Virus record (IMG/VR): IMGVR_UViG_3300005253_000368
Location: 1-42,433 of that record
DNA from: a virus
Length of the DNA stretch: 42,433 bases
Direction: 5' to 3' (one strand)
The position numbers were made by a program, and so were the translations under genes. This document shows positions 8,430 through 42,433 of the stretch, one piece after another. How positions within the stretch are numbered: the first letter of the stretch is position 1; each line of letters starts with the position of its first letter. A model generated the notes under the pieces. That model had not been told where the DNA came from and did no database searches. It saw only the letters and a list, made by a program, of their open reading frames with translations.

Positions 8430-8440
8430 TTTTGAAATCA
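8427..8440. promoter_or_regulatory. 14-bp dyad TGATT-N4-AATCA at an intergenic hairpin
   Basis: The sequence is TGATTTTGAAATCA, beginning with the stop codon of the upstream gene and followed one base later by a GC-rich hairpin (8442-8467). Confidence 0.55.
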
Positions 8441-8441
8441 A

Positions 8442-8467
8442 GGCGGGCAGCAATCGGGCTGCCCGCC
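8442..8467 (+). other. GC-rich intergenic hairpin without U-tract
   Basis: GGCGGGCAGC (8442-8451) and GCTGCCCGCC (8458-8467) form a perfect 10-bp stem with a 6-base loop. No T run follows, so it is not a standard terminator. It could protect the 3' end of the upstream message, pause polymerase or mark RNA processing. It also explains why the in-frame upstream ATG at 8432 is not the start of the next gene. Confidence 0.7.
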
Positions 8468-8482
8468 CACAGAGGAGTAACT

Positions 8483-10177
8483 ATGGGTAACTGGTTAAAA
8501 AGTGTCTGGGAAGGTGTTTCCAAGAGTAGGAGTCTAACTCCGTGGAAACAGGCACAACCGGACCGTTGGGACTGGGACCGAATCGTTGAAGAACTAGGTT
8601 TGACGCAGCGAGAAGTTTTGAACCTAGCGGCTCATGGTGGCAGTATCATGATTAAAGATGTTGTTCCACAAGACGAAGACAATGAAGAAGTTTCATCCAA
8701 GACTTGGATCGACGTTTCTGGCCAAACAGCTTTAGAAACTTGTACAACTAGTACTCTTGATGTTATAATCAGTATTACCTCTAGTTTTCCGATGTGCAAA
8801 ATCAATGATACAACCATCGAATTAGATGAAGCAACCGACGAGGGACATTATGAAAAAGACATTAATTTCACTTTACCTGCTGGCGCCACTGACATTAGTG
8901 TCAATTTGCTTTTACCTAATGATACTCTTGGTGCAGGGTACACTACAACTGTAGATATTGTCGCTGGACCAACGCTGTTAACGCTGCATTTTACTGGTGG
9001 TTACCCAGGTAGTCAAACGGAGATGAAAGTCGGTGATACATTTCAAATCACTGGAACAACGGACGTCCCTTGTGTTGCTGCAAGAGTCTTGGACTTTGGC
9101 GCTTGCACAGCAGCTGTTCAAGGTTTTCCGAGTGCTAACACTTTTGTTATCACAGCAACGATTGACACGACTGGCTACACGCCTGTGGCGTTAGCAGCGA
9201 AAGTTCAAGCTCGTAATGCAGATGGCGCCTACGGCCCGGTAGCAGTAACAACTCTGAATGGTGGCGCAGTCGATGGTTATAATACTATAATTTGCAATGA
9301 CACGGTTCCAACATTCATTGATAGTGATTACACTAATGACGATAATCCAGGGGCGACGGCTTTCAAAGGCACTGAAGAAGGTACTCAAAGTACTGTAGTT
9401 GCTGATTACGACACTGTACTCTACAGTTCAGCAACTAGTGATTTTACAATCACAGATCCAAATACTTACAGTGTTGACAAAATTATTACATTGACGAATC
9501 CAGGCGATTATAATGATAGTGAAAACAATTTCAAAATCACAGCAAATAGAGCAGCAAATGACGCCACTGAAGTTTTTGAAAAAATCATCGAAGTTGCGGA
9601 TACTGCACCGATACTCACAGTGACACAACCAGCAGCTAGTCTGCGATCTGAAGGTACTTACACTATTACGGTGACTTCAGACCAAAACCTCAATGGTGCA
9701 CCTGATCTTAACATTGCTGTTGGCGGCACGTGGCAAGGTGGTGGTTTTGCGGGTAGCGACAAAATCTGGACAAGAGACCTCTTGATTGAACACGATGACG
9801 CTCGCGGTACAACTGCTTGGACCCAGGTTTCTCCAGCCGAGAACAATGCTGGCGTAGGCGCGAGTATTACGGGCGATAATATCATTGGTGGTTTTCTTGA
9901 AATGGAGATTACTTTTAATCATGACCCTGCTTGGAATCTCGAGCCCTTGGAAAATCTTTCCGAAGTAGTAGATGTTACTAATTTGATTTGCGAAGATAAT
10001 GCTGGCCATGCCTTGGCTTATCAAGCTGGAGTTGGCGATAATCCTTATACTTTTACAATCACAGACGCTGGCGGTACCCCAGATGTAAATGGCAATTATT
10101 TGAGATGGACAGACCTCGACGCTGTTGGTGCTAACACTACTGGCACTGCTTACCTTAAAATAGAAGAGACACTTTGA
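8483..10177 (+). CDS. Ig-like multi-domain fibre or surface protein
   Basis: 564 residues from ATG 8483, chosen because GAGGAG precedes it and because the product then starts with the module shared with the two upstream proteins: S-V-W-E-G near residue 7 and R-W-D-W-D-R-I-V-E-E-L near 27-37. The rest is a string of beta-rich segments rich in T, V and D, reading like successive bacterial Ig-like or cadherin-like domains, for example T-F-V-I-T-A-T-I-D, Y-T-I-T-V-T-S-D and N-P-Y-T-F-T-I-T-D-A-G. Function: probably a spike or long decoration protein using the same virion attachment module as its neighbours. No enzymatic motif is seen. Confidence 0.6.
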   Translation: MGNWLKSVWEGVSKSRSLTPWKQAQPDRWDWDRIVEELGLTQREVLNLAAHGGSIMIKDVVPQDEDNEEVSSKTWIDVSGQTALETCTTSTLDVIISITSSFPMCKINDTTIELDEATDEGHYEKDINFTLPAGATDISVNLLLPNDTLGAGYTTTVDIVAGPTLLTLHFTGGYPGSQTEMKVGDTFQITGTTDVPCVAARVLDFGACTAAVQGFPSANTFVITATIDTTGYTPVALAAKVQARNADGAYGPVAVTTLNGGAVDGYNTIICNDTVPTFIDSDYTNDDNPGATAFKGTEEGTQSTVVADYDTVLYSSATSDFTITDPNTYSVDKIITLTNPGDYNDSENNFKITANRAANDATEVFEKIIEVADTAPILTVTQPAASLRSEGTYTITVTSDQNLNGAPDLNIAVGGTWQGGGFAGSDKIWTRDLLIEHDDARGTTAWTQVSPAENNAGVGASITGDNIIGGFLEMEITFNHDPAWNLEPLENLSEVVDVTNLICEDNAGHALAYQAGVGDNPYTFTITDAGGTPDVNGNYLRWTDLDAVGANTTGTAYLKIEETL

Positions 10178-12330
10178 GCGACTTTACGATTTGGACACAA
10201 GACGAATTAGCTGAGAGACCCTCCGTGGCGTCTATCGAAGCTACCGGTTCGATCTTAGTCAAAGTCAACAACCCATTCTCCAAAGACTATGAAGCTCTGG
10301 CCCAGGGCACTTCTGGTCAAGTCTTATTGTCTGAAGGTACTGACACCGTCCCGGTATGGTCCAGTGATTCAGATAATTGGGGCACTGCTTACACCCACTC
10401 ACAGAATCATAGCCAAGCTCATACTGATTATCTAATCAATAACGGCAGTGACGAAACTTCTGGTACTTTGACAGCAGCTGCTTTTGTCACCACTGGCAAT
10501 ATCACAATTGACAGTGATAGTAGTCTATTAAAATTAGGTGCGGAGCAAGATTACACAATTGGTTGGGATAATGCTGACGCTGTACATACTATTTCTGCTG
10601 GCACTTTTACCTTTCTTGGTGGGCGTATGGGTGTTGGCACTGCTAGTGCAGCAGCAACACTTTCACTCAAGCACTTTGATTCTGATTTACCTAACTATGG
10701 TGAAACAATAATCATCAATGGTGATTTTGTAAGTGATTTATCTAGTTGGACAATTGGTAGCGGTGGGGCTGAGTGGGTTTGGGACACAGGTAAAGCAAGA
10801 CATGTTGCTGGTAATACTAGCACATTTTATCAAAATATAACAACTGTTAATGCTGGTGTGTATGTTGTGACGTTTACTATATCTAGTCGGACAGCTGGGA
10901 ATATAACAGTAACATTTGGTTCGGCCAATGGTAGTTATTTGTTAAGCACAAATGCAACACATGTAATTTCATTCAAAGCTGTAGGTACTAGCACAGACTT
11001 AACTTTCAAACCTTTGTCGCAATTTAATGGTTCAATTGATGATGTCTCTGTTCAAATATTAACTGGTACAACACCGGTTATGACATTGAATGACAATAGT
11101 GATGTTGTTAGAATGGAAATGCGGGCTGTTGGGAATAATATTTTTATAGGATTAAGTTCAGGAGTATTAAATACCAGTGGTATTGCAAATGTTGGATTAG
11201 GTTATCATGCTCTTGAAAGAAATACAACTGGGTTATTTAATGCAGCTGTTGGGTCATATGCTCTTGAAAATAATATGTCTGGTAGTTACAATATGGCTAT
11301 GGGAGTGGAGACATTACAAAATAATGCAACAGGAAGTAATAACATAGCTATTGGTAGAAGAGTGTTAGTAGGTAATACTATTGGTAGTCAGAATATTGGT
11401 ATTGGGGGCTCGACATTGCTTGATTTAACAACAGGTACACATAATACTATAATTGGTTTCTATACAGGACGAGGTATTACAACTGGTAGTAAGAATACTA
11501 TCATTGGTGCTCAAGTACAAGGACTAGACTCTAATTTACAAAATCATATTATTCTTGCAGATGGCAACGGAAATCAACGTATAATTATAGATGCTAGTGG
11601 CCATGTACAAATTCCAGGCGACAATGTAAAATTAGAATTTGGTGCCGCAAAAGACTATGATATTCAGTGGAATGGCGATAATGCTATTCATACCATCAGT
11701 GCAGGATCATTTATTTTTACTGGTGGTTCATTGATTGTTGGCGGTGTCACAAATTATATTGAGTTTGAAGCTGATGGTATGTTGGTGATGAATGGTGAAG
11801 CAACTGTATGGGATGATATTAGAGTCGATGCTTTGGCCACAAAAATAGGCCCATTAAAACAACCTACTTTTAGTCAGTTTGCTGATGATGGCGCAGGTAG
11901 TACAGGTGTATTTACTTACATGTTTGCTGATAATGCTGAAGAACAAGTATTTTTTGGTGTTCTAATACCTCACGGTTACAAATTAGGTAGTAATTTACAA
12001 CCACATGTTCATTGGTCACCCCAAACAACAGATACAGGTCAAGTTGATTGGTTCCTTGAATACACTATTGCAAATCTTAATGGTACATTTGGTAATACAG
12101 CAACTATTATAATGTCGGATAATGGTGATGGTACAATCAATAAGCACCAAATAGCAGAAACTGATGTAATTGATGGTTCAAGTTTGACATTAGCTTCTAA
12201 GTTAATTTGTAGATTGTACCGTGATGGCGGCCAAGGTAATGATGATTTTACTGGTGACGCTGCACTTTTAGAATTTGATATTCATTTTGAGCAAGATACA
12301 ATTGGCAGCCATGAAGAGTATGTAAAATGA
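10174..12330 (+). CDS. Trimeric-autotransporter-like tail fibre with carbohydrate-binding-like domain
   Basis: 718 residues from a TTG start overlapping the upstream stop (TTGA). Order: N-terminal region (1-60); a module with D-Y-T-I-G-W-D and H-T-I-S-A-G near 125-150; a jelly-roll, CBM-like domain at about 175-300 (N-G-D-F...S-W-T; D-D-V-S-V-Q); YadA-head-like repeats at about 325-450 (N-x-x-x-G x-x-A-L-x-x-N-x-T-G); a second copy of the D-Y-D-I-Q-W/H-T-I-S-A-G module near 490-510; and a C-terminal beta domain with H-V-H-W-S. This fits a receptor-binding fibre. From about 10650 onward the DNA is clearly more AT-rich than neighbouring head genes, suggesting a separately acquired host-range segment. 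Confidence 0.7.
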   Translation: MSDFTIWTQDELAERPSVASIEATGSILVKVNNPFSKDYEALAQGTSGQVLLSEGTDTVPVWSSDSDNWGTAYTHSQNHSQAHTDYLINNGSDETSGTLTAAAFVTTGNITIDSDSSLLKLGAEQDYTIGWDNADAVHTISAGTFTFLGGRMGVGTASAAATLSLKHFDSDLPNYGETIIINGDFVSDLSSWTIGSGGAEWVWDTGKARHVAGNTSTFYQNITTVNAGVYVVTFTISSRTAGNITVTFGSANGSYLLSTNATHVISFKAVGTSTDLTFKPLSQFNGSIDDVSVQILTGTTPVMTLNDNSDVVRMEMRAVGNNIFIGLSSGVLNTSGIANVGLGYHALERNTTGLFNAAVGSYALENNMSGSYNMAMGVETLQNNATGSNNIAIGRRVLVGNTIGSQNIGIGGSTLLDLTTGTHNTIIGFYTGRGITTGSKNTIIGAQVQGLDSNLQNHIILADGNGNQRIIIDASGHVQIPGDNVKLEFGAAKDYDIQWNGDNAIHTISAGSFIFTGGSLIVGGVTNYIEFEADGMLVMNGEATVWDDIRVDALATKIGPLKQPTFSQFADDGAGSTGVFTYMFADNAEEQVFFGVLIPHGYKLGSNLQPHVHWSPQTTDTGQVDWFLEYTIANLNGTFGNTATIIMSDNGDGTINKHQIAETDVIDGSSLTLASKLICRLYRDGGQGNDDFTGDAALLEFDIHFEQDTIGSHEEYVK

Positions 12331-13696: not shown

Positions 13697-13710
13697 TGAT
13701 TTTGTAATCA
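13697..13710. promoter_or_regulatory. 14-bp dyad TGATT-N4-AATCA before the coat gene
   Basis: The sequence is TGATTTTGTAATCA in the 63-bp scaffold-coat gap, ending 20 bases before the coat ATG. Flanking bases extend the pairing: GGGTTG (13691-13696) can pair with CAACCC (13709-13714), so the leader RNA could fold into a larger hairpin just ahead of the Shine-Dalgarno AAAGGA. Confidence 0.55.
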
Positions 13711-13730: not shown

Positions 13731-15320
13731 ATGAAGTTTCTGAAATCAATTAGTTACGTTGCGTTTGATAATGATTTCGATACCGATGAACGATCTTGGA
13801 ATCCTGAGGTTTGGGCAGCGGAGACGCTGGTTGTGCTTGAGGAGAACATGGTAATTGGACACTTGGTCCATACTGATTTTGAAGATGAAATCGCTGCTTT
13901 TGGTGATACTGTCAATACGCGTATGCCTGGCACGTTCAAGGCCAAGCGTAAGGGTACGAATGATGATGTTGATGTGCAAAGTGCAACGGCCGATAAGGTG
14001 GCTATTGTGTTGAATCAACATGTTCACACGTCCTTCATGATTCGTGATGGCGAAGAGAGTCGCTCTTTTGTCGATCTCGTTAATACGTACTTGCAGCCTG
14101 CTGCAAAGTCTTTGGCTGAGCATATTGACCGTATTCTGTTGGGTCAAGTGTACCAGTTCTTTATGATTCGTGATGGCGAAGAAAGTCGTTCTTTTGTCGA
14201 TCTTATTGATACGTACCTGAAACCTGCTGCTAAGTCTTTGGCTGAGCATATTGACCGTATTCTGTTGGGTCAAGTGTACCAGTTCTTGGACAATCAGGTT
14301 GAACAAGACCCGGATGATACGTCTAGTGATATCAAGGACATGATTCTTGATCTTCGCGAGGTTCAGAATATTAAGAAGGTTCCGGTGGATGGTCGTAACC
14401 TAATTCTTACTACGACAACTGAAACTGAAGCTCTGAAGTTGGACCTGTTCCTTTCAGCCGAAAGAGTCGGCGATGAAGGTACTGCTTTACGTGAGGCTTC
14501 GCTTGGTAAGAAGCTTGGCTACCAGACGTACATGAGTCAGAATGCTTCTGGCTACAAGACTGACGGCGGAAGTACCCTCGGTACGACAAATGCTGCTGGT
14601 AGTACAGACGGTGTTCATGCTGCTGGTAGCACTGTCATTACGTTGACCACTGATTCTAGTGCTGTTTTGACTGGTATGTACATCACTTTCACTACGGTTC
14701 CTGGTGTGTACCGTGTTACTGCTGGTGGCGCTGCTACTGAAATCACGATTGATCGTGGTCTTGAAGCATCTTGCCCTGATGATAGTTTCATCAGGTACCG
14801 TACTAATGGTGCGATTGACCTCGCAGGACACGCTGGCGTCTCTACGTATCCAATCGGTTATGACAAGCAAATCAATATCACCGCTAGTGGTGTTATTCCT
14901 CAGCTTGGTCAACTTGTCGGTTTCGCTGATTCTGATAGCGATCCTGTTCGCACGGGCGAATACTGCATCATTGATGTTGATGATGGCAGTGGCGCTGGTG
15001 ATTATTACATCATGCTTGATCGGCCTTTGGAAGCAGCCCTTGAAGACACTGATGTAGTCAATTACGGGCCTGCATTCCAGTATAACTTTGCGTTTGATCG
15101 TAATGCACTTGCATTGATCAGTCGACCGTTGGCTCAACCGAGGTCCGGTACTGGTGCAGTTTCCGGTGTGTCGTCTTACAATAACTTGTCTATGCGTGTT
15201 GTCATTACGTATGATGGCACCAAACAAGGTCATCTTGTGACATTCGATCTGCTCTGTGGTGTGAAGGTGCTCGACGTGAATCGCGGTGCAGTTCTGCTTC
15301 GCAATCGCATTGGAAGCTGA
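13731..15320 (+). CDS. Major coat protein, P22 gp5-like, with internal duplication
   Basis: 529 residues behind AAAGGA. The N-terminal arm and the segment N-P-E-V-W-A-A-E-T-L, the A-x-x-G-D-T-V-N-T-R stretch and S-F-M-I-R-D-G-E-E-S followed by P-A-A-K-S-L-A-x-x-I-D match P22 gp5-like coat proteins. Residues 102-143 (FMIRDGEESR to LGQVYQF) are repeated immediately as 144-185. A beta-rich insertion with N-I-T-A-S-G lies at about 265-420, and the end (V-T-F-D-L-L-C-G-V-K-V-L-D) is typical. Codon use is biased to CGT, GGT and CTG, as expected for the most abundant protein. Scaffold upstream and joining genes downstream agree. Confidence 0.85.
   Translation: MKFLKSISYVAFDNDFDTDERSWNPEVWAAETLVVLEENMVIGHLVHTDFEDEIAAFGDTVNTRMPGTFKAKRKGTNDDVDVQSATADKVAIVLNQHVHTSFMIRDGEESRSFVDLVNTYLQPAAKSLAEHIDRILLGQVYQFFMIRDGEESRSFVDLIDTYLKPAAKSLAEHIDRILLGQVYQFLDNQVEQDPDDTSSDIKDMILDLREVQNIKKVPVDGRNLILTTTTETEALKLDLFLSAERVGDEGTALREASLGKKLGYQTYMSQNASGYKTDGGSTLGTTNAAGSTDGVHAAGSTVITLTTDSSAVLTGMYITFTTVPGVYRVTAGGAATEITIDRGLEASCPDDSFIRYRTNGAIDLAGHAGVSTYPIGYDKQINITASGVIPQLGQLVGFADSDSDPVRTGEYCIIDVDDGSGAGDYYIMLDRPLEAALEDTDVVNYGPAFQYNFAFDRNALALISRPLAQPRSGTGAVSGVSSYNNLSMRVVITYDGTKQGHLVTFDLLCGVKVLDVNRGAVLLRNRIGS
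14034..14285 (+). repeat. 126-bp tandem duplication inside the coat gene
   Basis: Unit 1 is 14034-14159 and unit 2 is 14160-14285, each 42 codons, in frame. The first 72 bases differ at 10 positions (three amino-acid changes: V/I, N/D, Q/K), while the remaining 54 bases are identical. The uneven divergence suggests recombination between two diverged coat alleles, or gene conversion of the 3' half, rather than simple slippage. An assembly artefact from mixed strains is also possible. Confidence 0.9.
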
Positions 15321-15617: not shown

Positions 15618-16121
15618 ATGCAACCAAGACGCAAAGAAACACGACTGGTTAGAAAAGCCTTCTATAGGCTCAAACGAGACTATGGATTCCCAATCAGGCT
15701 TTACAAAATCACGAATGTTACTTTAGATCTTGAAGCGGGAACGAAGACACGCAGAGTGAGATACAAAAGTATTCCTCGGGCAGTCTTCGTCACCGCTAAG
15801 TTGTATCGGTCTTTTGTCTACGATCTGTCTTATATTGCTGTAAATAAGAATTTTGTCTCTGGTGGATTTTTTGATCCAGAGGATAGAGTTATTCTAATTG
15901 ACTGGCAAGATACCCGTGATTTTATAATCAAAATAGACGATTACATTGTCTATGACAATAAGCATTATTTAATTACAGGTGTAAGAACGTTTGAAAATGA
16001 TGCTGGTTATCTTGTGAAAGTTCGTGGAGTAGCCGGTTCAGAACTTATAGACGTCGCTCTTTTTGAAATAAGTAATGCTATTGAAATCACTCAAACAGTT
16101 GCTGCGGATGCAATACCATGA
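15618..16121 (+). CDS. Head-tail joining protein (putative)
   Basis: 167 residues, basic at the start (M-Q-P-R-R-K-E-T-R) and then beta-rich, with I-D-D-Y-I-V-Y-D-N-K-H-Y-L-I-T-G-V near 115-130. The strand pattern 'D-x-I-x-x-x-x-x-x-Y-x-I-x-x-V' is common in phage stopper and head-closure proteins. It starts 10 bases after the previous gene and overlaps the next by 4 bases. Placement between coat and tail tube supports a neck role; sequence alone is not decisive. Confidence 0.5.
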   Translation: MQPRRKETRLVRKAFYRLKRDYGFPIRLYKITNVTLDLEAGTKTRRVRYKSIPRAVFVTAKLYRSFVYDLSYIAVNKNFVSGGFFDPEDRVILIDWQDTRDFIIKIDDYIVYDNKHYLITGVRTFENDAGYLVKVRGVAGSELIDVALFEISNAIEITQTVAADAIP

Positions 16122-17021: not shown

Positions 17022-18092
17022 ATGCGCTTCCTGAAAGCGAAAACTCAATTTGCGTGCTTCGCACCAATCGACCTCAAACAGGCTGATTTTTATGTGCGTG
17101 ATGGTTGGGGCGGTCAATCAGGTGTTAGTTCTGTAACTAACACTTCTGAAGAGCCTCTGGCCGAAACTGTGATTGCTCTTACTACTTGTAATCTTGTCGT
17201 TCCCGTTGGAATGTCTGTACATTTCGGTAATGATAGTACCGATGGAGAGTACATCGTTGCCTCCAGAACTACCAGCGGTGGGACTGATGCAATCTGGACA
17301 ATCTTCCTAGATACGGCAACCGGCGGTGATTATACAATCACTATGGGCGGCCAAACCACGAATTCTATTGCGTTTGACGCAGTTCCTGCGACAATTGAGC
17401 TTGAATTGCAAGCGTTAGATGCAATCGGTTTCGATGACGTTGTTGTTACGAAACCAGCAGCCGATATTATTCTCACCTTTGCTGATGATCTTGGTGAACA
17501 GCCTGTTACTGGTCTTACCTGGACGTCCAGCTTAACTGGTGCAGGTGCAGAAACTTTTACTAATACGACGCCTGGTGTTTCTGCTACTAATACGGCAACG
17601 ATTACTCTGACTGCGGGTTTGGCTGAGCTTATTGCAGCCGGCGGGACAGTCACCTTTACTGGTAGCCTCATAGCTGTAAGAATTGGTGAAGGTAATATGA
17701 CGTATGATGAAACGAAGAATCGTGACTATATTCTCGATCGTGGGATTATTGACACCGTTCGCCCAGGCGATGATGTGCCTATGGATGTTTCTTTTGATTT
17801 TGTTTGGGAGTACATCACTGCGGTTACTGACAGTGCGGTCCCGACGATTGAAGACGCTTTGAAGCAACGCGGTGAAGCTTCCGCGTGGGTTACTACCTCT
17901 AGTGATGAATGTGAAGAATACTGTGTTGATCTTGAAATCCATTATGACCCTCAATGTGGTGGTACAAATAGCGAAAAAATTGTGTTTCCATTCTTCCGTT
18001 ATGAGAAGTTGACTCATAACATCAAAGATTCGCAGATTTCGTGTACTGGTAAATGTAATGCCACTGAGGCGACTGCTACTCGCGGTTCCTAA
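17022..18092 (+). CDS. Major tail (tube) protein with Ig-like insertion
   Basis: 356 residues behind AAGGAG. Start M-R-F-L-K resembles scaffold and coat starts. Residues about 25-215 are Thr/Gly/Ala-rich beta domains (T-G-G-D-Y-T-I-T-M, T-A-T-I-T-L-T-A-G). The last 135 residues carry the tube-like part: N-R-D-Y-I-L-D-R-G, D-V-P-M-D-V-S-F-D-F-V-W-E-Y and V-F-P-F-F-R-Y-E-K-L, plus several cysteines in C-E-E-Y-C and C-T-G-K-C. Its place just before the frameshifted chaperone genes and the tape measure is the conserved siphovirus order. Confidence 0.75.
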   Translation: MRFLKAKTQFACFAPIDLKQADFYVRDGWGGQSGVSSVTNTSEEPLAETVIALTTCNLVVPVGMSVHFGNDSTDGEYIVASRTTSGGTDAIWTIFLDTATGGDYTITMGGQTTNSIAFDAVPATIELELQALDAIGFDDVVVTKPAADIILTFADDLGEQPVTGLTWTSSLTGAGAETFTNTTPGVSATNTATITLTAGLAELIAAGGTVTFTGSLIAVRIGEGNMTYDETKNRDYILDRGIIDTVRPGDDVPMDVSFDFVWEYITAVTDSAVPTIEDALKQRGEASAWVTTSSDECEEYCVDLEIHYDPQCGGTNSEKIVFPFFRYEKLTHNIKDSQISCTGKCNATEATATRGS

Positions 18093-18759: not shown

Positions 18760-19220
18760 AATTTACTGGCCATTTCACGGGACCTGTATTCGACCTCGAA
18801 GCTTGGAAAGCTGAGTTACGCACACACCTCGAAGCAAAACTCTATGAGTATGTTCGAGAGTGGTTACGAGCAGTAACAGGTCGAGTCCCCGTTTGGTCAG
18901 GTATGTCGCAAGCTTCATTGCTTGCAATATCAGAGATGGTTGGCGGTAGACTTGTTATTAGTCCAAAAGTCAAGAGCCGCGTACCAAAAGGACGCGCTCT
19001 CGGGACAGCTACTCCTAGTATAACAGACAGTGATTTTACAATCACTGTAGTTACGAAAGTGCCACATTACACTTCGCAAGAATACAGAAAATCGCCGGTT
19101 GGCGGTAGCCCTTCAGCTCCTTGGTTTTCCTTGTTTGCTGGTGCGGAAGCTTTTAGAGCGATTGCACAAGACTTGCACTTACCTCCTGTACATTTCAAAC
19201 CCTTTGTCAAGACAATCTAA
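18756..19220 (+). CDS. Minor tail protein (putative)
   Basis: 154 residues, start overlapping the frameshift product's TGA and end overlapping the tape measure ATG. An N-terminal amphipathic helix (L-E-A-W-K-A-E-L-R-T-H-L-E-A-K) leads to a beta region with R-V-P-V-W-S-G-M-S and P-H-Y-T-S-Q-E-Y. The 'P-x-x-S-G' and 'H-Y' pattern resembles HK97 gp10-like or similar tail completion proteins. Tight coupling on both sides supports a tail assembly role. Confidence 0.45.
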   Translation: MKFTGHFTGPVFDLEAWKAELRTHLEAKLYEYVREWLRAVTGRVPVWSGMSQASLLAISEMVGGRLVISPKVKSRVPKGRALGTATPSITDSDFTITVVTKVPHYTSQEYRKSPVGGSPSAPWFSLFAGAEAFRAIAQDLHLPPVHFKPFVKTI

Positions 19221-33000: not shown

Positions 33001-33550
33001 TGATAAGTTTCCTTGAAAGTGACTCGGCCATAGAATTCAAATATACTAAATCTCTATTATTATCAACTACAAGATCCCAAGTATTGTAACTATCAAGTTC
33101 AACTTCCGCAGGATCAGTACCTTGCGGGATACCTGGTCTATCAATTTTAACAAGCATACCGCCTTGGTTATGTATAGCCTTTGCCTCATTTTTGAATCTT
33201 ACGTCTGTTATAATAATAATATCAGCGACCGCACCACGAAGAGCAAAGTTAATCCAAGTTTCTGGGTACACATTTCTAAGGTTGTTTCCAACTTCAATCC
33301 AAAGCTGTCGCGGTGATTTTCCAATCAATGGAAGGGATACTTCTTTTTCATCACGATGTGCTTCATAATAAATACCTGGTTTTAGACCAGTCCAACCGTA
33401 TAATTGCTGGGCAATATCTTTGAGTTTGTCAGCAAAAGACATGCGCTTGATACAAAAACCAGGCGCGGTACATCGAATAAAAGTGTGCATAAAAGACGCA
33501 AATTGATCTTTACCGGAACCTTTTTTATATCCAATACCTACGATTCTCAT
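32975..33550 (-). CDS. Deoxynucleoside monophosphate kinase
   Basis: 191 residues. Phosphorylates dNMPs to dNDPs for DNA synthesis. P-loop G7-Y-K-K-G-S-G-K-D near the N-terminus, F-A-D-x-L-K near residue 40, the R-x-L-W-I-E-V-G-N-N-L-R segment near 80-90 and I-I-I-T-D-V-R-F-x-N-E-A near 112-123 are the T4 gp1-like dNMP kinase signature. Fits the replication operon beside the primase-polymerase. An exact TGATT-N4-AATCA dyad lies inside at 33314-33327. Confidence 0.85.
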   Translation of the reverse strand: MRIVGIGYKKGSGKDQFASFMHTFIRCTAPGFCIKRMSFADKLKDIAQQLYGWTGLKPGIYYEAHRDEKEVSLPLIGKSPRQLWIEVGNNLRNVYPETWINFALRGAVADIIIITDVRFKNEAKAIHNQGGMLVKIDRPGIPQGTDPAEVELDSYNTWDLVVDNNRDLVYLNSMAESLSRKLINDIKAVNS

Positions 33551-33753
33551 TGATTCTCTCCAGTTAAGTTAATTTGTCCATAACTCCAAACCCCAGTTTG
33601 TTCAAGAATTTTGAAACTGGGAGTGGAAACATTGACACCAACAAAATGATTATTTGGTAATTTAATATACTGTGTAATGTGCATTTCAAAAGCGTGCATG
33701 AGTCTGCGACGTTGCTCAGTTGTCAAGCCATCAAGTTTTGATTTTAGACTCAT
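33547..33753 (-). CDS. Small hypothetical protein in the replication operon
   Basis: 68 residues. Start overlaps the stop of the primase-helicase gene (ATGA type) and its end overlaps the kinase start. N-terminal basic helix (L-T-T-E-Q-R-R-R-L-M-H-A-F) and a beta-rich C-terminal half. Not recognised; coupling implies co-translation with the primase-helicase. Confidence 0.5.
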   Translation of the reverse strand: MSLKSKLDGLTTEQRRRLMHAFEMHITQYIKLPNNHFVGVNVSTPSFKILEQTGVWSYGQINLTGENQ

Positions 33754-36452
33754 TTCACAATTATCTCTTTAACTAGAGTATCCCCGTGTAGAATGAGTCT
33801 GGGGGTAGCATCGTTAGAAGTTGGTTTTTCAAGAGATAGATTCCCTACAAAAAACTGTGCACCTTTTGCTAAGACGCGGCCTTTAGGATACTCGTGGGGT
33901 AGTTCACGGCCCATCCTGATCTTGGACCAAAGGTGTACATCTTCCGCCGGTAGCCATTCTTGAAAACGAGACCATAATTCGCCGTAGAGTACCATAGCAC
34001 CTGGAGAAGGAAACATAGTCTCTTCGAGAAAGATTTCAAAAGCAGTACGATTCAATTGGGCGTTTTGGAATTTGTCTTGTGTTTCAATGACTGGAACATT
34101 CATACGATCTATACATTTTGGAATTTCTAATTTCAAAAGTGTAGCCATGAATGCTGGAGCTTCTTTTTTCAAACGTATGTGTAATTCGTCGCGTGGAATC
34201 ATGTCCATCAGACCAAGCGGCGGTACTTGAATTACAGTGATCCGTGTGTCTCCAGGAAAAATCGGACACTCCCGCGGGTCATTAGCTGTATGAATATAAT
34301 GTGTTGTATTGTCAATAAGGTATGGTGTCTTATTTTTAACATGAATAGGTATTTGTAGCGCAGTCACCCAGTCTTTAAGACGATTACGAGCACCAACGCT
34401 CTTTGTGATATCAGTTTCTTGAATGACACAAAGAACAGCATTAGCCAATTCACCATTAAAACCTTGTGCGCTTGTGAGTGCTGTATCTGCGCGTGCATAA
34501 CCAGTGGTATTGATTAAAAAACTCAAAGCTTCATGTAATGTAGATTTACCTGTGTTCTCAGCTTTTGAGTAAAGAAATAGATATGGTAATGGCCGCTTTG
34601 GATATTGAAACAGTGAAGCAATCCAAAGGCGGAGATAATCCTCACCCGTAGCCACACCGTTAACTTGACACCAACCGTCCTCTTTGATTGCATTATCAAG
34701 GCCACGCCCACAATGCTTTAGTATTAAATCCCAAGTTCCATGATTAAAAGGTTCCTCTTGTTGTGGTAAATAACGAAATTGCGCAGCTTCTCGGTTCCAA
34801 CGTCTGCCGCCAAGATATTCTTCTTGGAATGGTTCACTGACTAACAGCCAAGGCTCTAGGACGCAAGAACCTAGTGATTTATTAACTTCTTTTTCAGACA
34901 TGTCCCTTGCTTTTAATGCAATTTTTACATGTTGCAAAGGTTCGGAAGTCCATTTTGTATCTGATTTAACCACCCACCCACAGTCTGATTCTCCTGTAGA
35001 TAAATGTCTGATAATACTATCAAGATTCATATTGCCTGCTTCTTCAGTTTGCGTCAAACGAGCATAAAAAAGCTTTTTCCACCATCCTTTGTCTTCACGC
35101 CAACCTTGCATATCGCTATACTGGTCCGTGGGCTCGCGTTTAACATGTACAGCCAAACGGCCGTCTTTGTGTTGCTTAATAATTGTGTTTCTACTACACG
35201 CCCACAATGGTAATTTTAGATCAGCACCTAACATTCGTGCAGTAGCGGTAGCGGTTTCAGCTTCATTGAAATGATAATCACCCTTCTCGTCTTCGATACC
35301 GTCATAAGCCCTTGAAGCAATACGTAATGAAGGATCACGATTATAAAAGCATTGTGTCCAACCAGCTGCATCTTGCTCCCAACATTTTGATTCTGCTACG
35401 CCTTCTGAAAATCTGCGAATACTCCAAGCACCCGCTGGGTCTGATAGTGGGAAAGCATAACAATTCCAGTCTTCACCTTTACGTTTGCCAATTGCAAGTG
35501 TATCAAAAATACCTCTAAAATTAAGATCTTCATGAGCTTTTTTCAAATCAAATGTATGACAGACTAACATCCAGCGGTCATTATCCCACCACCAAGATAC
35601 TTTTGATTCACGTAAATAATCAAAAAGCTTCTTGTGTATATCATCAAGTTTTGTTCTAGATCGTTGGCCAGTTAATTCCTCAAACGCAGTTCGATCGGCT
35701 TCTTTAATTTGACTTGGGATACTGCGTCTACGCTTCTTCTTAATAACGTCAAGATGATCACGCCAATTGATAGGAATATCAGTTAATACTTCACCTTGTT
35801 TGATAAGAGCAAGACCGTCAGAACCTTTCATCTTGCGGTGAAAAACCCACATGTTTCCACCACAAGCGTCAACTTTGATTGAAAAATCAAAGCCAGTATC
35901 CGCGGACATTTTGCCTAGAATCGAGCGTCCCAACGCTGCGTGTTCAGTGTGGTTAGCGGTCGGTACGTCATTAAGAAAGACGTAAAGATGTAGCCCTTGA
36001 CCGCCACTAGATTTACGAATAGTAATCCAAGGAAGCTTACAAGCAGCTTCTTGAACTTCTAAAAGTTCTTGGCCAGTTAATTTTGCCGCATGGCCCTCAG
36101 CATGGCCTGCAATGTCGTCAAAATCAAAAGCGACCCATTTAGAGATTCTTTGTTCCCAGTTCCAACCGGTCATACCTATAGCTTCAGCATGTGTAGCTAA
36201 ATTGTAGACCATCTTAGAGTCTTCAAAATGCGGGTCTGTAGCTGCACCCCAAGGTATACGTATTGCTTTCCATTGCTCGTCGCCGTTTGAATAACCGTGC
36301 CACATACGGCCCTTAAATTCGCCTTCTATACGTTCCCCACTATCTTGGGCGACATTGACTTGAACTTCCATTCCGAAATGATACCGCGAAGCCAAATCTT
36401 CGTGAGTAAAATCAGTAAGAAAATTCTTAATGGCTTCTGTTTTTGTCGGCAT
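33750..36452 (-). CDS. Primase-polymerase / SF3-type helicase fusion
   Basis: 900 residues, first gene of the leftward operon. N-terminal archaeo-eukaryotic primase-like domain: A108-F-D110-F-D112, then S148-S-G-G-Q-G-L-H155-L-Y-V, then V-D195 before A-C-G-G-N; these are the D-x-D, s-x-H and acidic motifs of AEP enzymes. C-terminal SF3-like ATPase: S-K-A-E-N-T-G-K-S-T at about 628-637 (Walker A), V-L-C-V-I-Q-E-T-D at about 670 (Walker B), and H-T-A-N-D-P-R sensor-type motif after it. It probably primes and unwinds phage DNA, and may also polymerise, as no separate DNA polymerase is in the window. Confidence 0.82.
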   Translation of the reverse strand: MPTKTEAIKNFLTDFTHEDLASRYHFGMEVQVNVAQDSGERIEGEFKGRMWHGYSNGDEQWKAIRIPWGAATDPHFEDSKMVYNLATHAEAIGMTGWNWEQRISKWVAFDFDDIAGHAEGHAAKLTGQELLEVQEAACKLPWITIRKSSGGQGLHLYVFLNDVPTANHTEHAALGRSILGKMSADTGFDFSIKVDACGGNMWVFHRKMKGSDGLALIKQGEVLTDIPINWRDHLDVIKKKRRRSIPSQIKEADRTAFEELTGQRSRTKLDDIHKKLFDYLRESKVSWWWDNDRWMLVCHTFDLKKAHEDLNFRGIFDTLAIGKRKGEDWNCYAFPLSDPAGAWSIRRFSEGVAESKCWEQDAAGWTQCFYNRDPSLRIASRAYDGIEDEKGDYHFNEAETATATARMLGADLKLPLWACSRNTIIKQHKDGRLAVHVKREPTDQYSDMQGWREDKGWWKKLFYARLTQTEEAGNMNLDSIIRHLSTGESDCGWVVKSDTKWTSEPLQHVKIALKARDMSEKEVNKSLGSCVLEPWLLVSEPFQEEYLGGRRWNREAAQFRYLPQQEEPFNHGTWDLILKHCGRGLDNAIKEDGWCQVNGVATGEDYLRLWIASLFQYPKRPLPYLFLYSKAENTGKSTLHEALSFLINTTGYARADTALTSAQGFNGELANAVLCVIQETDITKSVGARNRLKDWVTALQIPIHVKNKTPYLIDNTTHYIHTANDPRECPIFPGDTRITVIQVPPLGLMDMIPRDELHIRLKKEAPAFMATLLKLEIPKCIDRMNVPVIETQDKFQNAQLNRTAFEIFLEETMFPSPGAMVLYGELWSRFQEWLPAEDVHLWSKIRMGRELPHEYPKGRVLAKGAQFFVGNLSLEKPTSNDATPRLILHGDTLVKEIIVK

Positions 36453-36478
36453 GATGGTAAAATCAAGTTGTTTGAATT

Positions 36479-36492
36479 TGATTATAAAATCA
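36479..36492. promoter_or_regulatory. 14-bp dyad TGATT-N4-AATCA, leftward leader
   Basis: The sequence is TGATTATAAAATCA, 26 bases upstream of the primase-helicase ATG on the minus strand and downstream of the minus-strand promoter-like box. More copies of GATTTGATTTT-like half-sites flank it. Confidence 0.55.
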
Positions 36493-36538
36493 AATCAGGT
36501 CTAATAGGAAAATCAAATCAAACGATAGTGCGTCATAA

Positions 36539-36565
36539 TATAATACGTAATCTAATGGTAAAATG
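36539..36565 (-). promoter_or_regulatory. Shared promoter-like box, copy 2 (leftward operon)
   Basis: On the minus strand: CATTTT at 36565-36560, ten bases, then TACGTATTATA ending at 36539. It matches the box at 36741 in 24 of 27 positions by eye. The primase-helicase ATG lies 87 bases downstream. Confidence 0.65.
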
Positions 36566-36673
36566 GGCACACTATTTTTGAGAATACAGAAAGCATAATT
36601 ACCGCTTCTTATTAAGCATACGGAAAGAAAGAAAGTAAGAAAAGAAGTCTATAAGGTAATAGGAAAACCCTGT

Positions 36674-36701
36674 TTGTATGTCACTTTTTATTCCTTATAC
36701 T
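36674..36701 (+). promoter_or_regulatory. Sigma70-like promoter toward the ParB gene
   Basis: TTGTAT (36674-36679), 16 bases, TATACT (36696-36701). A plausible host-sigma promoter upstream of the shared box at 36741, so the ParB operon may have both an early host-type and a phage-type start. Confidence 0.35.
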
Positions 36702-36740
36702 ATGGACGCATATACAAAGCAAATTTTTGGAATTATAGAA

Positions 36741-36767
36741 CATTTTGCCATTATTTTACGTATTATA
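36741..36767 (+). promoter_or_regulatory. Shared promoter-like box, copy 3 (rightward ParB operon)
   Basis: CATTTT, GCCATTATTT, TACGTATTATA. Identical spacing to the two other copies. The ParB-like ATG is 122 bases downstream, with a dyad in between. Confidence 0.65.
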
Positions 36768-36816
36768 TGTAGACCAATATCTAATGTATGATTTGATTTT
36801 CCTAGTCACTTAACAT

Positions 36817-36830
36817 TGATTTTTCAATCA
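36817..36830. promoter_or_regulatory. 14-bp dyad TGATT-N4-AATCA, ParB leader
   Basis: The sequence is TGATTTTTCAATCA, directly followed by AAATCA and then TTGTTGTGATTT, giving further half-sites. It lies 58 bases before the ParB-like start, a natural autoregulation position. Confidence 0.55.
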
Positions 36831-36888
36831 AAATCACTTGTTGTGATTTACAGTAATGTGGTGACCAACACTAACTTAGGAGTCCTTT

Positions 36889-37866
36889 ATGTCGACAAGT
36901 CTGCGTTCAATTAAAATCACGGACATTCGTGAGAACCCAGTCGCTCTTCGTGCAGTTGACCGTGAATCTGAAGCTTTTGTAGGTTTGCGGGATTCAATTG
37001 CTCTTGTAGGTATTATGAATCCAATCAATGTTCGTGAGCGTACTGAAGTGATTGAGGGACAAACAATCACGTATTACGAACTGTGTGACGGTTTGCACCG
37101 TTATACGGCTGCCGTGGACGTAGGTATCACTGAATTGAATGTACAGATTCTTACGCTAGATGACGCTGACGTGTTGGAAGCGCAGGTTATGGCAAATGTC
37201 CATAAAATCGACACGAAGCCAGTCCAGTACACTCAGCAAATGAATCGCATCTTTGCAGGCAATCCAGCAATGACCATTTCTGACATGGCTGCCAAGTTGG
37301 CCAAAAGTCCGTCATGGGTTAGCCAACGATTGGGTTTGCTCAAGTTGGAGAAGGGTATTGCTGAGCTTGTTGATGATGGTAAAATCACCATCAGTAATGC
37401 CGTTGTTTTGGCGAAGTTGCCTCATGAAGAGCAGGTTAATTTTGTCGATAGTGCTATCACTCTCGGCTCGGATGAATTTGCTCCACAAGTTCAAGCACGT
37501 GCTAAGGAATTGCGTGATGCAGCACGGCAAGGGCGTGTACCTGGTCAAGTTACTTTTGAGCCCACTGCTCGATTCCAAAAGATGGCTGTTCTGAAAGATG
37601 AGCTAGCTGGAGCAGCGGTCGGTCCGGCTATCTGTGCTCAGAATAAAGCTAAGACGGCTGATCAAGGATTTGCCCTTGGTGTTCGTTGGGCTGTCAGTAT
37701 GGACCCGGCGAGTGTTGAAGTTCAACGTGCTTCTGCTGAAGCGAAAGCTCAGAAGCTTGCTGAAGCTAAGGCAACGCGTGTTGCTGACAGGGCTGATAAG
37801 AAGGCAAAGGAAGCCGCCGTAGCTCAAGCTAAAGCACAAGCGGGACTTCAGAAGACCGCAAAGTGA
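36889..37866 (+). CDS. ParB-like DNA-binding protein
   Basis: 325 residues behind AGGAG. N-terminal ParB/sulfiredoxin-type domain: D-I-R-E-N-P at about 12-17, L-x-x-S-I-A-L-V-G-I-M-N-P-I near 33-46, and the CTP/phosphate-binding G-L-H-R-Y-T-A-A at about 68-75. A KorB/ParB helix-turn-helix follows at about 124-150 (M-T-I-S-D-M-A-A-K-L, S-P-S-W-V-S-Q-R-L-G). The C-terminus (about 270-325) is a long A/K/E-rich helix. No ParA is adjacent, so a regulatory, genome-coating or segregation-independent role is likely. Codon use (CGT, GGT) suggests high expression. Dyads in its own leader and elsewhere are candidate binding sites; this link is inference. Confidence 0.82.
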   Translation: MSTSLRSIKITDIRENPVALRAVDRESEAFVGLRDSIALVGIMNPINVRERTEVIEGQTITYYELCDGLHRYTAAVDVGITELNVQILTLDDADVLEAQVMANVHKIDTKPVQYTQQMNRIFAGNPAMTISDMAAKLAKSPSWVSQRLGLLKLEKGIAELVDDGKITISNAVVLAKLPHEEQVNFVDSAITLGSDEFAPQVQARAKELRDAARQGRVPGQVTFEPTARFQKMAVLKDELAGAAVGPAICAQNKAKTADQGFALGVRWAVSMDPASVEVQRASAEAKAQKLAEAKATRVADRADKKAKEAAVAQAKAQAGLQKTAK

Positions 37867-39143: not shown

Positions 39144-39325
39144 CGAATGACAACTTTAAATTGGCTCGACAAGTGATGGCTAACTATTTCACCAAAAATC
39201 CTGGTTGTAGACTAACTTATGTTGCTAATATAGCTATGTTGCTTCATGATCATCATGGTATTACTAACCATAAAAAACGTAACGCAGCAGCCAATGATAT
39301 TATGAATTTGATTTTTAATACTTAG
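39140..39325 (+). CDS. Small hypothetical protein before the tRNA
   Basis: 61 residues, start overlapping the upstream TGA. Helical, with H-D-H-H-G and K-K-R-N-A-A-A-N-D-I-M. Possibly a small DNA-binding protein. Its TAG stop shares one base with the tRNA-Leu gene. No family is recognised. Confidence 0.5.
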   Translation: MTNDNFKLARQVMANYFTKNPGCRLTYVANIAMLLHDHHGITNHKKRNAAANDIMNLIFNT

Positions 39326-39407
39326 GCCGTGTGGCGGAATGGCATACGCACCGGACTTAAAATCCGGCACCAATAAGGTATTATAGGTTCGAATCCTATC
39401 ACGGCTA
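39325..39407 (+). tRNA. tRNA-Leu (anticodon UAA)
   Basis: Acceptor GGCCGTG pairs with CACGGCT (one G-T), discriminator A39407; D arm follows TGGCGG; anticodon stem CCGGA/TCCGG encloses CTTAAAA, anticodon TAA; a long variable arm (class II, as expected for Leu); T arm ATAGG-TTCGAAT-CCTAT. CCA is not encoded. It reads UUA, a frequent Leu codon in these AT-rich genes, so it probably supplements the host pool. The G at 39325 is also the last base of the upstream stop. Confidence 0.93.
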
Positions 39408-39412
39408 CTGAA

Positions 39413-39961
39413 ATGAAAACACTACATTGTACGTCCTGTCTGTTGTGGTTGGCTAAAAACAACAAGACCTGGGACACTATTTTTGCAGATCCTCCAGATA
39501 ACATAGACTTGAAGTATAGTCTTTATGGTGATCGTATTCCAGATGAAGAATATGTATATTTGTTGCGACAGTGGTTATTTGCATTTATACAGAATGCCCG
39601 ATGTGTTTGGTTCAGCTTTAATGTGAAGTGGTGGGTTGAAGTTGCACGTATTATAACTGACTTAAAACAGATGTTTGGCGGCACGGTTAAAATCAAATTT
39701 TGCGTACAAATTTATACTTTTGGCCAACACAATCAACATGATTTTGGCACTAATCATCGACCGATTTTACGAATCACTCGTAAAGGTGCTCCTTTGTATC
39801 CAGATGCAATACGTGTACAATCACAGCGACAAATAAATGGTGACAAACGCGCAAATCCTGCTGGTCGAGTACCAGGGGATGTTTTCGATTTTCCTCGCGT
39901 TACGGGTAATTCAAAACAGCGGCGACGTTGGCATCCAACACAACTACACGAGGGCTTGTAG
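39413..39961 (+). CDS. DNA methyltransferase, N-terminal part (frame disrupted)
   Basis: 182 residues. F-A-D-P-P-D-N-I at about residues 24-31 is the catalytic motif IV of a beta-class amino-methyltransferase, with D in place of the usual aromatic after DPP. The end reads R-R-W-H-P-T-Q-L-H-E-G-L and then stops at TAG (39959-39961). The normal family continuation (L-V-E-R-C-I and the SAM-binding D-P-F-G-G-T-G) is present, but in the -1 frame. So the gene looks split by a one-base loss, a sequence error, or a -1 frameshift event at GGC-TTG. Confidence 0.75.
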   Translation: MKTLHCTSCLLWLAKNNKTWDTIFADPPDNIDLKYSLYGDRIPDEEYVYLLRQWLFAFIQNARCVWFSFNVKWWVEVARIITDLKQMFGGTVKIKFCVQIYTFGQHNQHDFGTNHRPILRITRKGAPLYPDAIRVQSQRQINGDKRANPAGRVPGDVFDFPRVTGNSKQRRRWHPTQLHEGL

Positions 39962-40161
39962 AGCGTTGTATTAAAATGACTACACTTCCCGGTGAACAGG
40001 TTTTAGACCCATTTGGTGGTACAGGCACAACATTGCGTGTTTGTAAGCGAATTTCTCGGGAGTGTACTTTACTTGAAGTAGACTCTTTTTATTGTGAGCA
40101 AATCGCAAAAGAAAACGCTCTAAGTAAAATAAGTGAAAACACCTGGTCGGAGAAGTTATGA
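39928..40161 (+). CDS. DNA methyltransferase, C-terminal SAM-binding part
   Basis: Up to 77 residues in the -1 frame relative to the upstream part, from TTG 39928. Homology really begins at L-V-E-R-C-I-K (from about 39955), continuing V-L-D-P-F-G-G-T-G-T-T (motif I, SAM binding) and L-L-E-V-D-S-F-Y. Residues before that are an artefact of reading the overlap in this frame. Alone it cannot be a methyltransferase; joined at 39958 (re-reading one base) it restores the H-P-T-Q to D-P-F-G-G order of beta-class enzymes. Overlaps the helicase start by 4 bases. Confidence 0.7.
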   Translation: MASNTTTRGLVERCIKMTTLPGEQVLDPFGGTGTTLRVCKRISRECTLLEVDSFYCEQIAKENALSKISENTWSEKL

Positions 40162-42077
40162 AAGAACAGACAAAATTCAAGGTCGGGAAGTTCTTGGTTC
40201 CTGTTACTTTGACATATGAAGACAAACGTATTTACGTTGAGTTCCCGTTCAATCGGGGACTTATCGCTGAAGTTAAGTCTATGGCTGGCAGTAAGTGGCA
40301 TGGTTTTGACAAACCACCAAGGAAGATTTGGTCTATTTCTAATTGTGCCCGTAATCTTTTTCAGATTTCTTATCTCAAAGGTGAAAATCCGTACGCACCC
40401 TGGGATAAAGATATTGTTCAACAAGAGTACGAACGCGATCTCTACACACATCAAAAGGCCGCTATTGATTTTATACTCGCCAGGCACTATTGCGAATTAG
40501 CAGCCGATTGTGGTCTTGGTAAAACACTTGACGCAATTGAGGTGCTTGAACGAGCAAAGCCCATTTCAGCTTGGTACGTTGCTCCCAGGTCAGCACTTTA
40601 CGCAGTGCAGCTTGAGATGAAGAAATGGGACTGTCAAGATGAATTTGAGTTCATGACGTACCACGGTCTCGTTTCACGAACTAACAACTTTACTGAGACC
40701 TCGGAAGTCCCGCAATTCCTAGTTATTGACGAAGCTTCTAAAATCAAGAACCCAACAACCCAGAGGTCACAGGCTGCATTGATAATCGCGAATTATATTC
40801 GCGAAGCCTGGAACAATGAAGGTTATGTTCTCTTGATGACTGGTACACCGGCTCCTCGTTCCCCGTTGGATTGGCACCATCAAACTGAAGTCTGTTGCCC
40901 TGGTTTTCTTAAAGAAGGTACACAAGCTAAGCTCAAACAGACTTTAGCTATTACAGAAAAGTGTGAGAATCCACACGGCGGTTCTTTCTACCAGCTTATC
41001 TCTTGGCGTGACGATCCGCGTAAGTGCAATATCTGCGGTGAGTTCATAGCCCATGATAACCATAACCCACAGATTTTGAATTCATTGGATTGTGTGTCTG
41101 GGGAAGATGAAGACACTTGGCATGAATTCGTTCCGAGTATTGATGAAGTGTCACGGCTTCACAAACGCTTAGACGGTCTCGTTTTAGTGCAGTTCAAAAA
41201 GGATTGTGTTGACCTTCCAGACAAAGTCTATAGAAAAATTGAACTTCCGCCAACACCACAAATGCTGCAAGTTGCTAGAACGATTATAGAAACATCGTCT
41301 ACTACAATTGGTGGTTTGACGCTGCTCCGAGAGTTGTCTGACGGCTTTCAATATAACAAAGTCTTTGATGGTTTTGAGACTTGTCCGGTCTGTAAAGGTA
41401 AAAAACGCACAGCAAATCCTTTGTACAAGGTAGCGTGCCCAGAATGCCCGTACTATGAACCTTGTTTTGCCGGGAAAGATGTGGATTGTCCTGAGCGTCA
41501 GGAGCCTACAACCATTTGTGACGGCTGCGGTGGTCAAGGTCACCGTAAGACATACAAAAGAATAACAGAAGAGGTGGAGTGTCCTAAAGACGGGGCTCTA
41601 AGAGACTTGCTTGATGAATACGGGGAGGTGGGTCGTGTCGTAGTCTATGGTGGTTTTCAAGGTAGTATTGATCGTATAATCACGATTTGTGAAGCATGTA
41701 ATTGGGCCTGGATACGCGCTGATGGCCGCGGTTGGTCAAGTGATCTTGACGGCGAGCACCTTGACAATTTTCAAAATAAGGTGATTGATATTCCTCGGAT
41801 TGCTTTTGTTGGTCAACCCGGCGCTGCGGGCATGGGTCTGACCCTGACTGCTTCTCCTGTCATTATTTACTATAGTAATGACTTCAATGCAGAGTCACGT
41901 ATGCAATCAGAGCAAAGAACGCACCGCATTGGTATGGACACGAACCGTGGCTGTACAATCATTGATCTGTTACATTTACCAACAGATTATCTGATTCTTG
42001 AAAATCTTAAGCAGAAGTGCCATTTGCAATCATTGACTCTTGGTCAGATAAAGGAGAGTTTTGATGACAGATCATGA
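40158..42077 (+). CDS. SNF2-type superfamily 2 helicase with zinc insertion
   Basis: 639 residues. N-terminal domain with K-W-H-G-F and K-I-W-S-I, of a type seen before phage SNF2 ATPases. Q99 motif Y-T-H-Q-K, Walker A C118-G-L-G-K-T, Walker B V-I-D191-E-A-S, motif III T-G-T-P-A-P (about 228-233), then a second half with Q-P-G-A-A-G-M-G-L-T-L and motif VI Q-R-T-H-R-I-G. Between the halves are cysteine pairs: C-N-I-C near 290, C-P-V-C-K-G-K-K near 412, C-P-E-C and C-D-G-C-G-G-Q-G-H, a DnaJ-like zinc module. It probably remodels or repairs phage DNA. All core motifs look intact. Confidence 0.88.
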   Translation: MKEQTKFKVGKFLVPVTLTYEDKRIYVEFPFNRGLIAEVKSMAGSKWHGFDKPPRKIWSISNCARNLFQISYLKGENPYAPWDKDIVQQEYERDLYTHQKAAIDFILARHYCELAADCGLGKTLDAIEVLERAKPISAWYVAPRSALYAVQLEMKKWDCQDEFEFMTYHGLVSRTNNFTETSEVPQFLVIDEASKIKNPTTQRSQAALIIANYIREAWNNEGYVLLMTGTPAPRSPLDWHHQTEVCCPGFLKEGTQAKLKQTLAITEKCENPHGGSFYQLISWRDDPRKCNICGEFIAHDNHNPQILNSLDCVSGEDEDTWHEFVPSIDEVSRLHKRLDGLVLVQFKKDCVDLPDKVYRKIELPPTPQMLQVARTIIETSSTTIGGLTLLRELSDGFQYNKVFDGFETCPVCKGKKRTANPLYKVACPECPYYEPCFAGKDVDCPERQEPTTICDGCGGQGHRKTYKRITEEVECPKDGALRDLLDEYGEVGRVVVYGGFQGSIDRIITICEACNWAWIRADGRGWSSDLDGEHLDNFQNKVIDIPRIAFVGQPGAAGMGLTLTASPVIIYYSNDFNAESRMQSEQRTHRIGMDTNRGCTIIDLLHLPTDYLILENLKQKCHLQSLTLGQIKESFDDRS

Positions 42078-42284: not shown

Positions 42285-42433
42285 ATGGCTAAAAACACAC
42301 CAAAGACGCAAGAATTGATTACCGCAATCGAAAGTGATATTGCGACTGACAAATTCACTGGCCGTGAAATTGCACGTAGACACAATGTTGGCCCCGATTT
42401 TGTCGCTAAGGTAGCTAGAGGCCAAGCTAAGCC
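42285..42433 (+). CDS. Partial small DNA-binding protein
   Basis: Starts at ATG 42285 behind AAGGA and runs open to the window end (49 complete codons). The visible part, with F-T-G-R-E-I-A-R-R-H-N-V-G-P-D-F-V-A-K-V, has the spacing of a helix-turn-helix (G-R-E-I-A-x-x-x-x-V-x-x-x-x-V). Probably a small regulator or terminase-like HTH protein. The 3' end is outside the window. Confidence 0.6.
   Translation, partial: MAKNTPKTQELITAIESDIATDKFTGREIARRHNVGPDFVAKVARGQAK

Follow-up and report, generated by a model that had tools for sequence, protein, structure and literature searches.

Gene organization and leader elements

The window, that is, the whole stretch of DNA analysed, comes from a tailed phage and corresponds to a 42.4-kb virus record in IMG/VR. 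Its rightward genes begin with the first ORF of the structural operon (401–925, + strand) and include those for terminase, portal, major head protein and tape measure; exonuclease, nucleotide kinase and primase genes are read leftward. The primase gene (33750–36452, − strand; phrog_1156, DUF5906) diverges from a second rightward operon, headed by a ParB-like gene that we call ParB1 (36889–37866, + strand). This operon also holds a SNF2-type helicase gene (40158–42077, + strand), after which, in relatives, comes the gene for a second ParB-family protein, ParB2. The window's own ParB2 is expected farther downstream, past the window end at 42433. The record stops within an incomplete, possibly HTH-like ORF (42285–42433, + strand), a 54% identical homologue of which lies between ParB1 and ParB2 in the related phage G003. 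Elsewhere we observed a tRNA-Leu (TAA) gene at 39325–39408, followed at once by a gene for a small N6/N4 DNA methylase (39413–39961), and, within the gene for the major head protein, a direct duplication of 126 bp (14033–14287). At the extreme left contig end (1–98), the heptamer ACCAAGA is repeated 14 times in tandem; the array could be a genuine terminal structure, or else what made the assembly stop.

All three operons have a leader in which a perfect TGATTN4AATCA dyad sits between an exact promoter-like box, TACGTATTATA, and the first ATG. This order had been reported in a sequence-only reading of the same DNA, and we found its dyads, boxes and start codons in place. The structural operon (ATG at 401, + strand) has its box at 312–322 (+ strand), with TTGCAC at 291, and its dyad, TGATTTTAGAATCA, at 378–391. 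In the leader of the leftward primase operon (ATG at 36452, − strand) the box is at 36539–36549 (− strand) and the dyad, TGATTATAAAATCA, at 36479–36492; the identical sequence occurs at 3766 in the related phage L005. Another dyad with one arm mismatch, TGATGGTAAAATCA, spans the primase start codon (36452–36465). The ParB1 operon (ATG at 36889, + strand) has the box at 36757–36767 (+ strand) and the dyad TGATTTTTCAATCA at 36817–36830. Exactly three copies of the box are present in the window, against 0.026 expected.

The two divergent leaders also contain a direct pair of half-sites, TGATTTGATTTT, located at 36789–36800 (+ strand) on the ParB1 side and as a mirror copy (TGATTTGATTTT on the minus strand) at 36509–36520 in the primase leader. 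The pair on the ParB1 side does not vary between the window, L005 and L006, and is the longest invariant leader stretch in the latter two. Among homologues of the 401–925 gene, leader dyads were found in three of five relatives; in G013 and G012 they precede the gene by 29 and 36 bp. We further observed a promoter form common to three related phages, consisting of TTGCAY, a spacing of ~16–19 bp and a ACGTATTATA-like box (291–322 in the window, and the leaders of L006 and L008). A small protein that by eye resembles a sigma factor is encoded in ~27 relatives (e.g., G002, 8175–8666) and could be the reader of the special box.

A genome-scattered palindrome selected as DNA

Perfect copies of TGATT-N4-AATCA number 15 in the window, against 0.19 expected from dinucleotide shuffles, none of which produced more than two. 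Allowing up to one arm mismatch, there are 33 copies (3.2 expected), and the core TGAT-N6-ATCA occurs 32 times (1.9 expected). When gapped palindromes were scanned with all arms from 4-mers to 6-mers and gaps of 0–20, this core ranked first independently in the window, in L006 (17 vs 1.5 expected) and in L005 (7 vs 0.3). The dyad had been described as a leader element, which it is in the three leaders, but it is not restricted to them: the 12 further perfect copies are mostly intragenic. One of these is intergenic, 20 bp ahead of the major head protein gene (13697–13710), and one is at a gene junction (8427–8440); the remainder lie within genes, at 1412–1425, 3008–3021, 3431–3444, 9439–9452, 10425–10438, 15917–15930, 17327–17340, 19031–19044, 33314–33327 and, in the primase gene, 35876–35889. 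A scattered dyad within the ParB1 gene (37374–37387) is conserved at 10465 in L006.

Nearly all intragenic copies are in the frame that reads GAT...ATC, with 24 of the 26 genic copies of the window sharing one frame; one of the two other frames is barred because TGA would read as a stop. Shuffling synonymous codons with the amino acids fixed reduced these 26 copies to a mean of 2.9 (maximum 7), and the result was alike in L006 and in seven more phages with motifs of their own (in G007, 71 copies vs ~10). Since synonymous shuffling abolishes the genic excess, we conclude that the palindrome is selected as DNA.

Palindromes and leader sites in related phages

A profile built from three ParB1 proteins retrieved 26 relatives, and the addition of primase and helicase profiles extended the set to 120 non-redundant contigs, the primase matches being the best 80 of 226. 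The ParB1 search gave no relatives in bacterial genomes; among isolated phages the primase search gave none, and the ParB1 and ParB2 searches gave remote matches only. The relatives carry their own genome-scattered palindromes, such as GATG-N4 in G007 (79 copies in 48 kb vs 3.3 expected) and GATTT-N3 in G014 (35 vs 0.4). Other lineages have TGAT-N6, TGATT-N4, GATT-N4/N5, GATA-N5, TGAG-N6, ATTT-N3, AGTTA-N1, AACA-N1, AACT-N2, TCTA-N1 or GTTT-N4. Some relatives with both ParB proteins, long records included (G021, G022), yielded no scattered palindrome. We set aside the apparent palindromes of L149, L215, L221 and L222, which are local arrays or have very few copies. The ParB1 leader of L215 contains a tandem array of three GTTACCgtttGGTAAC, and that of L149 one of ~15 CCGG-N3-CCGG. 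In the part of the literature covered, we found no publication on such dispersed palindromes associated with a phage ParB.

The 400 bp upstream of ParB1 contain 75 sites against 18.5 expected (p = 6e-23), distributed over 41 of the 50 motif-bearing phages, with a median distance of 33 bp from dyad centre to ParB1 start codon. Upstream of ParB2 there is no enrichment (11 sites vs 16.7 expected). Conserved sites upstream of ParB1 are what autoregulation predicts and, taken alone, their clustering there and not upstream of ParB2 would favour ParB1 as the reader. The second leader element is a tandem of two half-sites at a distance of 5 bp, in many cases with a mirror copy (AATCAAATCGATTTGATT; CATCACATCGATGTGATG for the GATG lineage). 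Such direct arm-N-arm pairs near ParB1 leaders total 94 in 50 relatives, against 2.6 expected, and the leader half-site varies together with the scattered motif, including in the TGAG, TCTA, CTTC and GTTT types.

Across phages, 235 of 1288 sites are at least partly intergenic. Their spacing in G007 is more even than chance (CV 0.65 vs 0.93, P<0.001) under a matched null; the effect had seemed stronger when sites less than 100 bp apart were merged. Even spacing was also significant in some other site-rich phages, and not significant in the window (P = 0.29).

Two ParB-family proteins and no ParA

The relatives encode two ParB-family proteins, ParB1 and a Noc-like ParB2. The ParB2 gene belongs to the rightward operon of ParB1 and lies ~5 kb farther downstream, with the SNF2 helicase gene before it and that for DNA polymerase A after it. 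Of the 120 contigs, 103 yielded ParB1; those that did not are mostly fragments. ParB_N followed by HTH_ParB scored above the Pfam cut-offs in ParB1 and in the ParB2 of L006, and both ParB1 and ParB2 exceeded the TIGR00180 cut-off. The predicted structures of both proteins, including the AlphaFold model of the window's ParB1, match PDB entries of CTP/CDP-bound ParB and Noc; the nearest solved structure to ParB2 is Noc, both by sequence (1.8e-31) and by fold (model mean pLDDT 91). The P motif GxRR is kept in 74 of 76 ParB2 proteins, and ParB1 proteins mostly have GLHR or GLQR (the non-canonical GLHR in the window). We assign both to the ParB/Noc family on domain order and on a predicted ParB-CTPase fold with a GxxR P motif, a class in which nucleotide choice is not reliably readable from sequence (PMC12704722).

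Searching for ParA, we obtained no PF13614 match in the window and 20 relatives (21 records), while the control was positive in 14 of 14 genomes. The ParA-binding motif [LFI]G[KR]G[LFI] is present in none of 102 ParB1 proteins, that of the window included, and in two of 76 ParB2 proteins. The earlier description of a ParB-family product without a ParA partner therefore holds for the window and for these relatives. No integrase or resolvase family was detected in 19 records. The contigs L103 and L131, considered as natural ParB2 knock-outs, provide no test of ParB2 because the gene is present elsewhere on their records.

Covariation of the palindrome with the ParB2 recognition helix

Aiming at the protein that tracks the palindrome, we related motif similarity between phages to protein similarity. 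The helix of ParB2 correlated modestly with motif similarity, at r = 0.37–0.42; its partial r was ~0.30 when controlling for the remainder of ParB2 and ~0.28 when controlling for ParB1, with p values (0.001–0.002) from permutations that, for these related genomes, ignore phylogeny apart from the partialled-out whole-protein identity. The helix region ranked first or close to first as a predictor, and did so too with helicase, primase or other proteins controlled for. In a location-blind scan of 12-column segments, the best segment of ParB2 was exactly the recognition helix, SRAWVQVRLYLL (P = 0.002), and it was the strongest among the nine conserved proteins scanned; one segment of a 165-aa protein reached P = 0.010 in the same scan. 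The ParB1 helix gave P = 0.36, with a partial r of ~0.04–0.06 (p 0.18–0.32).

Among the best columns of the ParB2 helix are its first two positions, aligned with S172 and R173 of Caulobacter ParB; both of these residues contact parS, and R173 is one of four residues switching ParB to Noc specificity (PMC7383237). In ParB1, too, the S172 equivalent ranks first among single columns. The position equivalent to 173 is mostly R and variable, and the Noc-type Q was not encountered there. Judging by this covariation, ParB2, not ParB1, is most likely the reader of the palindrome. The sequence-only reading had proposed that the ParB-like product of 36889–37866 regulates itself: the leader sites upstream of ParB1 agree with self-regulation, but the helix that tracks the site belongs to ParB2 and not to that product.

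Proposed function and alternative explanations

Our data suggest that the dyad is probably the binding site of a phage ParB/Noc-family protein, with ParB2 the likeliest candidate, which would autoregulate its operon and cover or organize the phage genome. A ParB2 dimer would bind the convergent half-sites (TGAT-N6-ATCA in the window). Its targets in the leader region between the divergent primase and ParB1 genes would be dyads and paired half-sites just downstream of promoters; hindrance of RNA polymerase is expected since the leader sites sit just downstream of the promoter boxes, and would result in feedback on primase, on ParB1 and, because ParB2 shares the ParB1 operon, on ParB2 itself. 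At the ~30–80 further sites, mostly intragenic, ParB2 would load and cover or organize the whole genome, probably as a CTP-dependent clamp, as for Noc and KorB. With one loading site per 0.5–1.3 kb, such a clamp could cover most of the genome. ParB1 would then act alongside ParB2 or be another reader of this half-site, and the two proteins may make up a mixed system. Some observations count against ParB2: relatives such as G021 and G022 have both proteins and no scattered palindrome, the leader sites adjoin ParB1, and in the window the spacing of sites is not significantly even. It is from sequence patterns that we infer binding, clamp loading, repression and genome organization by ParB2.

The main competing explanation leaves the palindrome to ParB1 (36889–37866), binding alone or mixed with ParB2, with autoregulation and with the scattered copies as operators or loading sites. 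Its domains, its wide occurrence, the concentration of sites and half-site pairs in its leader and the S172-equivalent column all speak for it, but the ParB1 helix shows no covariation beyond overall relatedness, the non-canonical GLHR argues against it, and leader sites would autoregulate ParB2 just as well, the operon being shared; we therefore regard ParB1 as an unlikely reader. It is improbable that the sites are elongation blocks, at which a phage repressor stops transcription as at the stoperators of cluster A mycobacteriophages: these also combine genome-wide sites with promoter operators, but they are asymmetric, oriented with transcription and placed in short intergenic gaps (PMC9283540), whereas the sites described here are palindromic and mostly intragenic. 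Moreover, with no integrase or resolvase in 19 records, there is no sign of a lysogeny for such a repressor to serve.

Even less probable is a site for a host protein, or a methylation or uptake mark carried for the host. Although the small methylase encoded in the window would fit a mark of this kind, the motif follows the recognition helix of a phage protein across lineages, sites are concentrated at one phage promoter region, and leader half-sites change together with scattered sites. Finally, the intragenic excess might be a by-product of D-x-x-I amino-acid sequence and codon usage, as the shared reading frame and a mild enrichment of D-x-x-I (88 vs 62) would allow. The synonymous shuffles, which leave similarly few copies in L006 and in seven phages with different motifs and frames, refute this amino-acid origin, and we give it practically no weight.

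Returning to ParB2 as the reader, neither partition nor lysogenic repression is an obvious purpose of the system, given the lack of ParA in the records searched, of a ParA-binding motif in ParB1 and of integrase or resolvase. The proposal of a phage-wide regulator was right in that the protein is of ParB type, free of ParA and phage-wide in its sites; as a function it is probably too narrow, since the many intragenic sites, evenly spread in some phages, suggest a role beyond promoter repression. We advance with some reserve, as it may well prove otherwise, the wider idea of a large ParA-free phage family with a genome-wide nucleoprotein system, comprising two ParB/Noc paralogues, a clamp loaded at tens of dispersed palindromes, timing of the early operons and repeated co-diversification of site and helix. 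If true, the clamp would cover, compact or mark the entire phage genome; it might thereby guard against nucleases or silencers of the host, or help to coordinate replication and packaging.

Phages often encode ParB-CTPase proteins, most of which have no known use. The ~100 related contigs constitute a natural specificity series, in which about a dozen palindrome types are paired with recognition helices; it makes testable the notion of a phage ParB/Noc clamp as organizer or regulator of a whole genome instead of partition, and supplies ParB-site pairs that may be orthogonal and of use in DNA labelling.

Comparison with known systems

ParABS systems of plasmids and of the phage-plasmids P1 and N15 share with these phages the ParB fold and site-specific palindromes near parB; they differ in having ParA, which was absent from our 21 records, as was its binding motif from the 102 ParB1 proteins, and in having one cluster of sites, where the phages have tens. 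The stoperators of cluster A mycobacteriophages are likewise regulator sites dispersed over a phage genome, but are read by a monomeric repressor (PMC9283540). VirB of Shigella is a ParB homologue that acts in transcription and uses CTP; unlike the system proposed here, it is an anti-silencer of a virulence plasmid, and the parts of the two reports consulted do not describe such genome-scattered sites for it (PMC10653881, PMC10676424).

KorB of plasmid RK2 is also a ParB homologue of a mobile element with several palindromic operators (OB), and is a global regulator through CTP-dependent sliding (PMC11790492). Its operators are at repressed promoters. In the window, the dyads of three leaders follow closely after promoter-like boxes, and the ParB1 leader is rich in sites across the relatives, which may or may not amount to operators of that type. 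KorB has a ParA-binding motif (PMC12704722) and works with KorA, whereas the phages far exceed it in number of sites, most of them within genes, and we identified no KorA-like partner.

Noc of Bacillus differs in several respects. The setting here is a phage genome with, in many cases, one site per 0.5–1.3 kb; the sites are TGAT-N6-ATCA and variants, not NBS, and diversify between lineages; the phage protein scores 102.9 bits, far below the Noc model cut-off of 315; and neither membrane targeting nor division control is part of the role proposed here. What the two have in common is a ParB-family protein without ParA, short palindromes scattered over the genome and a second ParB paralogue (PMC8429893), and solved Noc structures are the nearest to ParB2.
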